NCBI GenBank assembly: GCA_021806165.1
Contig: JAJZXY010000005.1
Span: 1 to 64,000, forward strand
DNA length: 64,000 nucleotides
Source of the DNA: Thermoplasmata archaeon
Lineage (GTDB): Archaea; Thermoplasmatota; Thermoplasmata; Sysuiplasmatales; Sysuiplasmataceae
Direction: 5' to 3'
Shown: piece after piece, positions 59,797-64,000 of the stretch
How positions within the stretch are numbered: position 1 is the first letter of the stretch
Layout: each line of letters starts with the position of its first letter
Translations under genes and position numbers: made by a program
Notes under the pieces: model-generated
Seen by the model: only the letters and a program-made list of their open reading frames with translations
Databases searched by the model: none
Told to the model about the DNA's origin: nothing

Positions 59797-60417
59797 TCAA
59801 TCGGACACGACGCCTGCGGCGCTGATGTCAACTGTCAGTTTTGCCGTTCCAGAATGTGTTCCCGGCGGGAGAGGCGTTGCAGACAGTCCGATGAGTATGT
59901 AGAACACTGTGGCATGCGCGTTTGGCGCGACATAGATACCGGGGCTGGTGACGCTTGACATGCTGCTGTATACGACAAATCCGCCGGTAGTGGCCATATC
60001 TGACATAAACACCGGGAGAGTGTTGGCTGTGGATACTCCCACAGAGTTCGTCCACAGAGTCGCATCAGGTGAGGCATAGAATCCTACCCCTGTGTTGTTC
60101 AGCACCACTTCAACGCCTACATATTCACCCTGCACCAGGTTCTTGACATTCACAGTCAGGACCGTATTGCCGTTGGCTGATGTCGAATCACCTGTAACCC
60201 AGAGCGGAGAAGGCATGTGGCCGTTAATATTTGTCGGATAAACACTCGACATCGGTCCGCTCGTCTGGTTCCAATACACCGAAGCAGTGTATGACAACTG
60301 GGCCTCAGTCTGCCCGATGTTTGTGACATTTGTCCCGCTGTATGCGGAAAAAGCAAATACTCCCGTCATTCCTATCAGTATGGGGACCATTGCGAGAGCA
60401 ATCATTTTCTTATTCAT
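59797..60417 (-). CDS. TasA/AbpA-like secreted fibre protein
   Basis: A 206-residue exported protein. It begins MNKKMIALAMVPILIGMTGV, a SipW-type signal sequence, followed by FSAYSGTNVTNIGQTEAQLS, then beta-rich repeats with Asn/Thr/Gly (NVKNLVQGEYVGVEVVLN, GTAKLTVDISAAGVVS). No membrane anchor at the end. The layout fits TasA of bacilli and the archaeal bundling pilin AbpA. A near-perfect Shine-Dalgarno (GGAGGTGA, 5 to 6 bases before the ATG) suggests high expression. The S26B peptidase starts 125 bases away on the other strand. Confidence 0.55.
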   Translation of the reverse strand: MNKKMIALAMVPILIGMTGVFAFSAYSGTNVTNIGQTEAQLSYTASVYWNQTSGPMSSVYPTNINGHMPSPLWVTGDSTSANGNTVLTVNVKNLVQGEYVGVEVVLNNTGVGFYASPDATLWTNSVGVSTANTLPVFMSDMATTGGFVVYSSMSSVTSPGIYVAPNAHATVFYILIGLSATPLPPGTHSGTAKLTVDISAAGVVSD

Positions 60418-60514
60418 GTATTCACCTCCTTCCCCTTGCTGTGTATTGGAATGCGGAACGTTAATAAAGAATGGTAAGAATTGGTGGTTCCTACTGATTT
60501 AAATATAAAAAGGA

Positions 60515-60530
60515 AGAAACTCCGGTTTCT
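60515..60530 (+). promoter_or_regulatory. Hairpin in the signal peptidase leader
   Basis: AGAAAC and GTTTCT flank TCCG, directly after a TATA-like run TTTAAATATAAAA (60499-60511). It is a possible operator or leader hairpin before the TTG at 60543. Confidence 0.4.
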
Positions 60531-60542
60531 GCCTTTCGGGGG

Positions 60543-61772
60543 TTGAAAATCCTGGACCGTCTCAGGCTGTCGGTTGATGCAGTGATCGCTCTGTCATGGG
60601 CATGTTCCTATTACATTTCCCTGCTCTTCCCTGCTGATTTCGCCGGTCTGAGTCATATACTGCTGCTTGTTATCTATCTTGGCATCCTCTTCGCCCTCAC
60701 GAGAGAAAGATTTCTTCATTTGAGATTCGACATGCATGTTGTTCGCTCCTCAGTTCTGGGCTTGGTGTTTGTTCTGCTTCTCTTTGAGCCTGTTTTTGTG
60801 TCAGCGTTTCATTTTTCGGCTCTGCCGCCCCTGATTTTCCTTGAGCAGCTGCTCTTCATGTTCCTTTACGGGATTTTCCTTCAGGTTTTCCTTTTCAATT
60901 TCAACGCTGAACGGGCCGTCAAAAGGGGGGATAAGACTGCTATCAACCTTCCGTTCGTCCTTTTTCTCTCCACAATTTTCCAGCTCAACAGTATTTTATT
61001 CATCGTCAGGGGCTCGCCCATCACTGTCCTGAATTTCACTCTTAACGCAATAGCAGGCATAGTTCTGTTCTATCTTCTCTTCATAATGTATGTCAAGTTC
61101 AGGTTCAATAATCTCCCCGGAATTGTCTTCTATGTATTCTACTCCGTCCCAGTGCTGGTCAGCGTTTCCTACAGCTCCTCCCCCATTCTGTCCTCTGCCT
61201 GGATATTCGTTGATTTCTCCGTTGTGCTCATAATGCTTGAGCTGCTCGTCAGGGACAATGTCTATTCCATCAAGCTAACAAAGCCCGGCAATCCGTTAAG
61301 GGAGAAACGGAACAAATCGAGTGTCATAATCACACTGGGCGTCGTAGCTGCAATGCTGGCAGGCATCTTCGTGGTAGCGCCCCTTGTGATGGGCACGGCG
61401 CATCCCTTCCTCACAGATCCCACGGGAAGCATGTACCCTGTCATCAAGCCCAATTCCCTCCTGATAGTCAGGGGGACGGGCGTACATAGCATACAGGTTG
61501 GCCAGATACTCGTATTCACCGCCCCCTGGGACCACAATCTGACTGTTGCTCATCAGGTCATCAAGATACTGAACCATAACGGGACGGTCTATTTCCAGAC
61601 AAAGGGCATAGCGAATTCCGTCCAGGATCCTCTTCCTGTGCCTGCCTACGACGTCCGCGGCGTCGTCGTCACAAGCGTACCGTATCTTGGCTATCTCTTT
61701 ATCTACTCATACGCGTTCCTGTCCGCAATCCTGATTGCTGTGGCGATAATCGGTACAGTGAAATTCAAATGA
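60543..61772 (+). CDS. Signal peptidase I, S26B type, with N-terminal membrane domain
   Basis: A 409-residue membrane peptidase. The C-terminal third is the catalytic domain: DPTGSMYPVIKPNSLLIVRG with Ser296, and LTVAHQVIKI with His337 in place of the bacterial Lys, the archaeal/ER pattern; the final acidic block is NSVQDPLPVPAYDVRG. The N-terminal 265 residues form seven to eight membrane helices and are an unusual extension, as in SipW-cognate peptidases of archaea. The start is TTG 60543. Its stop overlaps the next gene (ATGA). Confidence 0.85.
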   Translation: MKILDRLRLSVDAVIALSWACSYYISLLFPADFAGLSHILLLVIYLGILFALTRERFLHLRFDMHVVRSSVLGLVFVLLLFEPVFVSAFHFSALPPLIFLEQLLFMFLYGIFLQVFLFNFNAERAVKRGDKTAINLPFVLFLSTIFQLNSILFIVRGSPITVLNFTLNAIAGIVLFYLLFIMYVKFRFNNLPGIVFYVFYSVPVLVSVSYSSSPILSSAWIFVDFSVVLIMLELLVRDNVYSIKLTKPGNPLREKRNKSSVIITLGVVAAMLAGIFVVAPLVMGTAHPFLTDPTGSMYPVIKPNSLLIVRGTGVHSIQVGQILVFTAPWDHNLTVAHQVIKILNHNGTVYFQTKGIANSVQDPLPVPAYDVRGVVVTSVPYLGYLFIYSYAFLSAILIAVAIIGTVKFK

Positions 61773-62308
61773 TCCCAATCTATGTGCCGCAAATAATAGC
61801 GCTGGCTTATATAGGGACAGACCTGATCGCGGTAGTTTCGTTCCTCAGGCTGAGAAGCAGGCTTTCCGGAATCAACCTGAACCTGGTACTGTTAATGAAA
61901 TTCAGGGAGCTTGCAGAATTCTACAGCAGGGGGGACACTTCAGAGTTTATGGCCAGGCTGGTCGCCACTCCTTCTCAATCCATTGCTTCAGATGCTTTTA
62001 CAGGAAGTTACGGTCTGCTGAACAGAGAGATTGAGAATCTGCAAAGGCAGTTTGGCCTGCCTTACAAACTCAGGGAGAGGCCGAGGGAGATGAGGAATGC
62101 GATACTGGAGCTCTCCGTATTTGCCATCCTTCTCACCTTTTCCACCTCATTCGCAGCTGTATCAAATGCTGTTCTCACAGGGCTTTTGTTTGCAATTCTG
62201 CTCAACACAGTATTCTACTATCCTTTTATTTCACTGTATTATGATTCGGTTGACGATCTGAAAGAGGTCTCCGGAATCCAGTCTAAAGTGAATACGAAGG
62301 ATGCGTAG
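61769..62308 (+). CDS. Membrane protein coupled to the signal peptidase
   Basis: A 179-residue protein with no recognised family. It has an N-terminal helix (YVPQIIALAYIGTDLIAVV), a long helical cytosolic or extracytosolic part (LLNREIENLQRQFGLPYK) and two C-terminal helices (ILELSVFAILLTFSTSFAAV and LLFAILLNTVFYYPFI). The ATG overlaps the peptidase stop by 4 bases, so the proteins are made together and may form a complex. Confidence 0.65.
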   Translation: MIPIYVPQIIALAYIGTDLIAVVSFLRLRSRLSGINLNLVLLMKFRELAEFYSRGDTSEFMARLVATPSQSIASDAFTGSYGLLNREIENLQRQFGLPYKLRERPREMRNAILELSVFAILLTFSTSFAAVSNAVLTGLLFAILLNTVFYYPFISLYYDSVDDLKEVSGIQSKVNTKDA

Positions 62309-62377
62309 ATCCAGTCCCCCTCAATATGCTCCGCGCTGAAAATGCACTCAGAACACAGCATGTGCAATGAAGCGGTG

Positions 62378-63436
62378 TCAGCTGTCTTTCAGTGGTCTGT
62401 ACCTTTTGCGCCGTCCCGCTTCCTGCCGAACGCTGTAGTAGTATATGCCGGAGCCGTACTCTGCGAAAAGCGTGCACTTTCCATCCGCACTGTACATGAA
62501 GATCGGCTGGCCAGAAAGATCGCTCAGCTTGGTCAGCTCCGCGAGCGATCCTACCGCCATCCCTGCCCTTGTTGACAGCGGGTCGGCGTCCACGGCGATA
62601 ATGTTGTCCCCGTTTTTTCTTATGAATGTCTCAATATCCGTTAGCTTCCTGCCCTGCAGGCCGGCGAGGAGGGCGCCTGTTATTGCGGCCGCAGCCGCCA
62701 GTGATATGTATGATAACGTCTGAAGCGATGACCTGTCATTGGGAAGCGGAATTATTCTCTCAACTGTTGAGGTTGCATTGTTCCATGCATTCGGGTCGTG
62801 CGTCACCTGCATGTACTGCCATGATTCGTTCCTGTTCGGAGAGAAGAACTGGAGAGGATAATTCACAGTCAGCTCGAGAGATGTATGGTTCAGCGCCAGG
62901 CTGTTGCCTATGAATTCACTTTCTGATGCATTGAAAACGATTGTGGGGTCCCCTGAGGAGATATTCAGCTGTCTGTTTATCTCCTGTATGTGTGCCAGAG
63001 TTCCGTTGAGGTCGAACGGGACCTCAACCCAGCGGGTGTACTGTGTCCCGTTGAATGCAAAGGTGTAGCTGTAATATCTGAAGTCAGTGGTCCACTGCGG
63101 CGACGTGCCGGACAGGACTTCCATTGTGACCGTGACATAGACCGTCACCCCCACTGGGAAATTGGATGAAAAGACGTACTCTGACATTATAGTCTCATTG
63201 TTTGTAATGTTGCTGAATATAGAGCCCGGGTCGGAAACTTCAGACGTATTGTACAGCATGTTTGGTTTCATTGAAGTGTTGACCATTGACCTGAGCCCCG
63301 AAGTGTATGAGAAAGAGACGCTGCTGACCGCTTCGGTCTTCTGGGATGCAGCCAGCGTCATGGTGAAACCGGCTATGACAACCTCCACTGCAAGCGCCAA
63401 AGAAAGCAGCAGTTTGCCATGCTTACTCCATTTCAA
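62378..63436 (-). CDS. DUF5305-like membrane-anchored protein
   Basis: A 352-residue protein matching in layout the archaeal DUF5305 family, which as I recall occurs next to SipW-type peptidases and secreted subunits. N-terminal helix LLLSLALAVEVVIAGFTMTL, a large extracellular beta-rich domain rich in Asn and Ser (SFSYTSGLRSMVNTSMKPNM, WTTDFRYYSYTFAFNGTQYT), a second helix SYISLAAAAAITGALLAGLQ and a cytosolic tail of about 95 residues (KNGDNIIAVDADPLSTRAGM). The start is TTG 63436, 9 bases after the regulator stop. Confidence 0.72.
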   Translation of the reverse strand: MKWSKHGKLLLSLALAVEVVIAGFTMTLAASQKTEAVSSVSFSYTSGLRSMVNTSMKPNMLYNTSEVSDPGSIFSNITNNETIMSEYVFSSNFPVGVTVYVTVTMEVLSGTSPQWTTDFRYYSYTFAFNGTQYTRWVEVPFDLNGTLAHIQEINRQLNISSGDPTIVFNASESEFIGNSLALNHTSLELTVNYPLQFFSPNRNESWQYMQVTHDPNAWNNATSTVERIIPLPNDRSSLQTLSYISLAAAAAITGALLAGLQGRKLTDIETFIRKNGDNIIAVDADPLSTRAGMAVGSLAELTKLSDLSGQPIFMYSADGKCTLFAEYGSGIYYYSVRQEAGRRKRYRPLKDS

Positions 63437-63445
63437 GTAATACCC

Positions 63446-63712
63446 CTAGTACGTTTTTTTTCCTGTGAGATAAGAAAGGGCAGTCAGCTGCGAAAGAACC
63501 TTGTGCCCCTTGTCTGTTGCCCTGTAGGTTATTTTTCCTTCCAGCTGGGCCTGCACGATGAGTTCCTGCTGAATCATCCTGTTGATTATGCGGATAGTAG
63601 ATTCGAAGTTAAGGTTGCACCTTGTCTTGATTCTCGTCCTGGTGGCTTCGTCACTTGCTATGAGGCTGAGGACGTCGTGTATTATGGCAGTTTCATCTCT
63701 CCTTCTCTTCAT
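63446..63712 (-). CDS. Winged-helix regulator of the secretion cluster
   Basis: An 88-residue archaeal winged helix-turn-helix protein (HTH_45-like): AIIHDVLSLIASDEATRTRI, ESTIRIINRMIQQELIV, wing LEGKITYRATDKGHKVL, and a C-terminal helix. It is the first gene of the minus-strand pair with the DUF5305 gene and probably regulates the surrounding cluster. ATG 63712. Confidence 0.72.
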   Translation of the reverse strand: MKRRRDETAIIHDVLSLIASDEATRTRIKTRCNLNFESTIRIINRMIQQELIVQAQLEGKITYRATDKGHKVLSQLTALSYLTGKKTY

Positions 63713-63822
63713 TGTTTACCTGTTCCTCGTTTATGCCAGCGATCCTGTCACCACGCTAACTTCCAGCATTATCAATTTTGATAATTGGTGAAGGGAGATG
63801 ACGCAAATAAACCTTATGGCCG

Positions 63823-63836
63823 GTGAGTAAATTTAT
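63823..63836 (+). promoter_or_regulatory. TATA-like box before a gene at the window edge
   Basis: GAGTAAATTTATTC, an isolated A/T-rich stretch after the divergent regulator. Transcription would start near 63862. Confidence 0.35.
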
Positions 63837-63944
63837 TCATGACACAGAGTGTCTGTCTTTGCAAACGATATTCTGCTGTATCTCTCCCGGTGACTCGTCC
63901 GAGGTGAAATGAAATGTTATCGGTTTAGGGAAATGGGGCAACAT

Positions 63945-64000
63945 AATGGCAGGAACAGCCGGTCTGCCTGTTGTCATGGACAGCGGACCGGTCAGAATGC
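63945..64000 (+). CDS. Start of a gene cut by the window end
   Basis: An ATG at 63945 opens 18 codons (MAGTAGLPVVMDSGPVRM) to the edge. The upstream purine-rich GGGAAATGGGG could bind the ribosome. Too short to assign. Confidence 0.35.

Follow-up and report, generated by a model that had tools for sequence, protein, structure and literature searches.

Organization of the locus

We analysed a gene cluster near the end of a 64,000-nucleotide stretch of DNA from a wall-less archaeon of the Thermoplasmata; this whole stretch is referred to below as the window. All five open reading frames listed in an earlier sequence-only reading were present at the sizes it gave (206, 409, 179, 352 and 88 amino acids), together with the ATGA coupling and the strong ribosome binding site that it had described (Table 1).

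Table 1. Features of the cluster in the window (arrow, predicted cleavage site; TM, transmembrane segment; RBS, ribosome binding site)
Feature	Position	Strand	Remarks
Secreted TasA-like protein 1, 206 aa	59797..60417	-	Leader ...GVFAFS↓AYSGT with a single predicted TM/leader helix; remainder predicted to be beta-rich
Divergent intergenic region	60418..60542	.	RBS AAGGAGGTG of the secreted gene; TATA-like boxes TTTAAATATA and TTTATTAAC
SipW-like ER-type signal peptidase, 409 aa, TTG start	60543..61772	+	Polytopic membrane domain of ~250 aa, then S26 domain with Ser296/His337
179-aa membrane protein, ~3 predicted TM segments	61769..62308	+	ATGA overlap with the peptidase gene
DUF5305-like protein, 352 aa, TTG start	62378..63436	-	Relatives above the Pfam cut-off, window protein below
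Winged-helix regulator (HTH_45, Sso10a-like), 88 aa	63446..63712	-	HTH_45 above cut-off
Stretch up to the second secreted paralogue	63713..64000	+	Paralogue start at ~64078, past the window end

The ribosome binding site of the secreted gene, AAGGAGGTGAATACATG, is near-perfect (AAGGAGGTG) and, like most of the divergent intergenic region, was retained in a relative with a cassette peptidase 73% identical to that of the window. In a two-sequence comparison with relative G003, positions 60418..60542 were largely conserved; promoter elements within this region were assigned by eye.

The cluster had been taken to end at 63712, which proved to be incorrect. The window border cuts off a second secreted paralogue (contig C33:~64078-64890; 270 amino acids from a CTG start), which is preceded by a short intergenic region. 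The contig thus carries, in order, a cation exchanger gene, the cassette (secreted protein 1, peptidase, 179-residue protein, DUF5305-like protein, winged-helix protein, secreted protein 2) and a phosphoglucosamine mutase gene.

Relationship of the secreted proteins to TasA and AbpX

When used as a single query, the 206-residue protein gave no match in PDB, Pfam or NCBIfam, so its kinship with TasA and AbpX became visible only through family profiles. Using a profile of 31 relatives (alignment A6), we found that the best four of 177,635 PDB sequences were two AbpX entries (E values of 1.2e-4 and 3.6e-4), TasA (5of1, 1.7e-3) and the TasA fibre (8aur, 2e-3). Alignment by hhalign with two TasA-like proteins encoded beside SipW in Sporosarcina gave a probability of 92.5% (E 4.8e-7), compared with 0.5% for a control with an unrelated cassette protein. 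Furthermore, 11 of the 31 members matched Pfam M73 (camelysin), which we take to be the CalY/TasA family, and any other family was matched by two members at most. The profile match to TasA and AbpX was mostly limited to one stretch of 30-70 residues, corresponding to the 'N-L-x-PG-[ED]-W-...-N-x-G-S' region. The protein had been proposed to be of the TasA/AbpA type. The TasA half of this assignment held, but the archaeal match was AbpX; no entry named AbpA appeared up to E 10 in the PDB profile search, as judged by entry name. AlphaFold placed a leader helix and seven strands in the 206-residue protein, in a low-confidence model (pLDDT of 34.9 with three alignment rows and 39.1 with two).

A second signal peptidase with a conserved membrane domain

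The 409-residue peptidase matched TIGR02228 (archaeal signal peptidase I) at 69.7 bits against a cut-off of 51.85. The SipW model ranked second, with the score for the SipW equivalog NF046067 below threshold (45.9 versus 190). Ser296 and His337 were invariant in all relatives covering these positions, identifying the ER-type Ser/His pair rather than Ser/Lys, as had been read from the sequence. The polytopic N-terminal domain of ~250 residues is missing from Sporosarcina SipW. When this domain was used as the sole query, it found several cassette peptidases of families f17 and f31 (down to 2e-11, with others weaker). Because the domain alone recognises these enzymes, it is a conserved hallmark of this peptidase family and no accident of the window, which is a new point.

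TIGR02228 gave one match in the genome, and we therefore considered whether the cassette enzyme could be the sole signal peptidase. This was ruled out by a second, differently built housekeeping enzyme of ~300 residues in the same genome (C30:104926-105732, E 2.5e-67). The ~300-residue enzyme was also present in G001 and G004, both of which have no cassette. These results support the earlier proposal that the cassette peptidase is dedicated, being additional to the housekeeping enzyme and travelling with the fibre genes.

The leaders of the secreted proteins suggest what such an enzyme would be needed for. In an alignment of 10 secreted proteins (A1), A22 and S24 were invariant, consistent with their being the -3 and -1 residues of a cut at AFS↓AYSG with an aromatic residue at P2'; the scissile bond therefore probably lies there. 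The leader motif was A[FY]S↓[AQSG][FYW] in families f1 and f17 and FA↓AF in f9, and the aromatic P2' pattern was found by motif in 41 of 47 secreted-protein matches, the remainder being mostly start-codon or frame artefacts. The TasA leader is cut at TWA↓AF, and an aromatic P2' occurs in none of 143 verified LepB substrates; TasA is poorly cleaved by LepB, to which the aromatic P2' and neighbouring residues contribute, while SipW does cut TasA (PMC10269814). By analogy, the archaeal housekeeping signal peptidase may share the difficulty of LepB with an aromatic P2'.

Conservation, gain and loss across Thermoplasmata

We performed profile searches over 400 Thermoplasmata genomes and then mapped selected neighbourhoods. 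Relatives of the secreted protein were found in 43 genomes, with a maximum of five paralogues in one genome. Relatives of the peptidase were found in 57 (S26-only matches counted in), those of the DUF5305-like protein in 34 and those of the 179-residue protein in 15. A candidate 179-residue protein in G092 was dismissed as a chance match of the profile. The peptidase was present in 39 of the 43 genomes with a secreted protein, which are related and not independent, and was undetected in the other four (G152, G177, G291 and G373).

All five gene types occurred together in the mapped neighbourhoods of f1 and f17, and a locus in f31 held four of the five up to the contig end. In f9, a high-GC family, only the secreted protein, peptidase and DUF5305 genes were found, and the 179-residue protein was undetected in its fibre clusters. 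The five-gene set, whose conservation the sequence-only reading had anticipated, is thus shared by three families of the class, counting the truncated f31 locus, and reduced to three genes in a fourth. Because f9 has the core alone and f1 and f17 have all five types, the cassette consists of a three-gene core (secreted protein, SipW-like peptidase and DUF5305 protein) and a two-gene accessory (179-residue and winged-helix proteins). Gene order is shuffled between clusters, and in f17 the gene overlapping that of the peptidase is often the DUF5305 gene and not the 179-residue gene. The recurrence of the set in many genomes is far beyond chance.

In a genome of the same genus, G001 (neighbour protein 74% identical), the exchanger gene is directly followed by that for phosphoglucosamine mutase, with a gap of ~165 bp. 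This junction is likewise empty in G004, G006 (contig C18) and G002, whereas G000 and G003 carry a block of ~5 kb there; G007 has the block just past the mutase gene and G006 has copies at other sites. As the junction is empty in some relatives and holds the full block in others, the block has been gained or lost whole.

Related archaea have retained, lost or rearranged the set as a whole. The viral sequence collection contained no relatives of the cassette peptidase.

The DUF5305 protein

The 352-residue protein had been called DUF5305-like, and this identity is borne out by its relatives, two of which exceeded the cut-off of PF17231 (36.1 and 48.7 bits), but not by the window protein itself, which scored 14 bits against a cut-off of 29. 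Its predicted architecture comprises an N-terminal anchor, an outer domain of ~210 residues, a second transmembrane segment at ~240-262 and a conserved cytoplasmic tail of ~90 residues. In many clusters the DUF5305 gene adjoins or overlaps the peptidase gene; in the others, both still belong to one cluster. No model for TapA matched any window protein, and the DUF5305 protein would stand in that place. Since it is the sole constant partner besides the subunit and the peptidase, we propose it as the membrane anchor or nucleator of the fibre. No mention of DUF5305 was found in the literature searched, a collection of 5.39 million papers.

The 179-residue protein and the winged-helix regulator

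The regulator matched HTH_45 at 55.9 bits (cut-off 25.5), in agreement with its description as a small winged-helix protein. Its family profile matched Sso10a structures (E 2.6e-10), while its score for the Sso10a chromatin protein model NF053610 was below threshold (48.8 versus 60). In most f17 relatives, the regulator has an additional N-terminal domain of ~130 residues that carries no Pfam name. The 179-residue protein had no meaningful relative in Pfam or PDB and represents an undescribed family.

A winged-helix gene was found within 1.3 kb of the 179-residue gene in all 28 loci; the two were directly adjacent in 22 and overlapped by 4 bp in seven. Moreover, six loci (L058-L061, L063 and L064), retrieved by the 179-residue profile alone, contained the pair without any fibre genes. 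This linkage, together with the six loci lacking fibre genes, suggests a membrane sensor/regulator pair. Most simply, the 179-residue protein would be the membrane-bound partner of the winged-helix protein, either controlling this regulator or being controlled by way of it. More tentatively, the two genes might constitute a hitherto undescribed archaeal sensor/regulator module, deployed in more than one genomic context, which at this locus would control a TasA-type matrix that provides part of the exterior layer of S-layer-less Thermoplasmatales or of a biofilm fibre.

For this part of the cassette, it is also conceivable, if somewhat doubtful, that the 179-residue protein belongs to the fibre or peptidase complex as an assembly or anchoring component, its link with the winged-helix gene being secondary. 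In the family of the window, its gene is ATGA-coupled to the peptidase gene and not to the regulator gene, which favours such a role. Adjacency or overlap with the regulator gene in most loci argues for the membrane partner instead, as do the loci with the pair but no fibre genes and the f9 clusters, in which fibre genes occur with no detected 179-residue protein.

Proposed mechanism and alternatives

Taken together, we consider it likely that the locus is a self-contained cassette for making surface fibres of the TasA/ABP type, with its own peptidase and a membrane-protein/regulator pair. The fold of the secreted proteins, their assembly into fibres and the function of the cassette are what we infer from these relationships. 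The two secreted beta-rich proteins would be exported by Sec and cut by the cassette peptidase just before an aromatic-rich N-terminus, which would be a poor substrate for an ordinary signal peptidase. The freed N-terminal segment may then exchange strands with the next subunit, and the mature proteins would thereby polymerise extracellularly. With its two transmembrane segments, large outer domain and conserved tail on the inner side, the DUF5305 protein would nucleate or anchor the fibre, occupying the position of TapA in Bacillus. The winged-helix protein would switch the divergent promoters, and the 179-residue protein, as its partner, may link the state of the fibre or membrane to transcription.

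It seems unlikely that the secreted proteins instead form a coat, in which case they would make up the disordered exterior layer found in Thermoplasmatales in place of an S-layer, with the DUF5305 protein as its tether. Thermoplasmatales live near pH 1, have no S-layer or S-layer genes and are bounded by a layer of protein, ~20 nm thick, whose composition is unknown (PMC12448462). The presence of up to five secreted paralogues is compatible with a mixed coat, and two secreted members weakly matched a haloarchaeal S-layer glycoprotein model. However, the closest solved relatives, TasA and AbpX, are fibre formers, and the absence of the cassette from the related genomes G001 and G004 indicates that it is not essential. 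It is more improbable still that these proteins are an unrelated family (a camelysin-type protease or other beta-sandwich) that is processed by the archaeal signal peptidase and does not polymerise: the closest Pfam family is named for the metalloprotease camelysin, but TasA and AbpX rank above all other solved proteins in the profile search, and the secreted paralogues, their own peptidase and the leader chemistry match the TasA layout. A type IV pilus was ruled out, as the cassette has no class III leader, ATPase or platform protein.

Comparison with known systems

The fibre cassette resembles the TasA-SipW-TapA operon of Bacillus subtilis in having a secreted beta-rich subunit with the gene of a cognate ER-type signal peptidase nearby, an aromatic P2' in the leader and a family profile that matches TasA structures. 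Unlike that operon, it has a DUF5305 protein and no recognised TapA-like gene, its peptidase bears the additional ~250-residue membrane domain, it includes the 179-residue and winged-helix proteins, and in the window its secreted and peptidase genes are divergently oriented. Among the archaeal bundling pili (ABP/AbpX) of Pyrobaculum and Pyrodictium, AbpX is the best solved match to the cassette profile, whereas AbpA was unmatched and the cassette host belongs to Thermoplasmata. Donor-strand fibres do occur in archaea (PMC11952670). Sulfolobus threads (Saci_0406) are similar in being Sec-exported, signal peptidase I-processed donor-strand filaments (PMC9715654); however, they gave no profile match to the cassette protein, and the portion of the thread report considered here names no dedicated peptidase among the thread-gene neighbours. 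The CdiP type IV pili of Cuniculiplasma are likewise surface filaments of S-layer-less Thermoplasmatales (PMC12448462), but have a class III leader, an ATPase and a platform, and so rely on a different assembly chemistry. Thus, while TasA and ABP fibre systems are of a known kind, the conserved membrane domain of the peptidase and the tie between the 179-residue and winged-helix proteins are new.

Published filaments of Thermoplasmatales are type IV pili and archaella, with TasA unmentioned (PMC12448462). Our analysis brings to light a regulator paired with a membrane protein that has no Pfam family or solved structure, gives DUF5305 a testable role, and suggests, through the leader chemistry, why a second signal peptidase is kept. 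For protein structures outside the cells of Thermoplasmatales, the cassette is a concrete and conserved candidate, and it ties them to the bacterial biofilm fibre TasA.

Cassette variants in related genomes

The second secreted paralogue, which lies beyond the window end, appears to start with CTG or another rare start codon, preceded by an AGGGGG box. In its G003 relative, a TTG further upstream is a possible start.

Among the relatives, the cassette is flanked in two loci by very large proteins resembling sedolisin-type S53 proteases. In genome G006, where the cassette occurs in two near-identical partial copies, a transposase-like gene lies at the border of a copy. An insert interrupts the DUF5305 gene of L133, and this gene is intact in the near-identical locus L130. 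In a Picrophilus-like genome, two overlapping frames share the SipW-like gene between them, the result of either a frameshift or a sequencing error.

The window's genome also encodes a member of a conserved Thermoplasmata signal peptidase family of ~300 aa, which profile TIGR02228 detects barely or not at all. This enzyme is probably the housekeeping one.

Features with coordinates
Locus	Positions	Genome:contig	Feature
L027	7078-7890		Second secreted paralogue
L029	3149-7192		Flanking protein, 1347 aa
L030	12709-16839		Flanking protein, 1376 aa
L031	8724-9957	G029:C1	Two-frame SipW-like gene
L032	3238-4378	G006:C61	Transposase-like gene
L133	6629-8236	G209:C1	~1.6-kb insert
L089	104926-105732 (contig)	G000:C30	~300-aa signal peptidase
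L058	1172-5770	G383:C35	Pair adjoining putative operon: two ATPases (467, 484 aa), split platform (275, 306 aa)

Stand-alone pairs

Conserved genes that resemble those for a DUF211 protein and a VIT1-like membrane protein lie near the stand-alone pair of 179-aa protein and winged-helix genes in most of loci L058-L061, L063 and L064. At L058, the pair, without fibre genes, adjoins what by sequence would be a type IV pilus-like operon, whose predicted layout of two ATPases and a split platform is that reported for CdiP, the type IV pili of Cuniculiplasma (PMC12448462).
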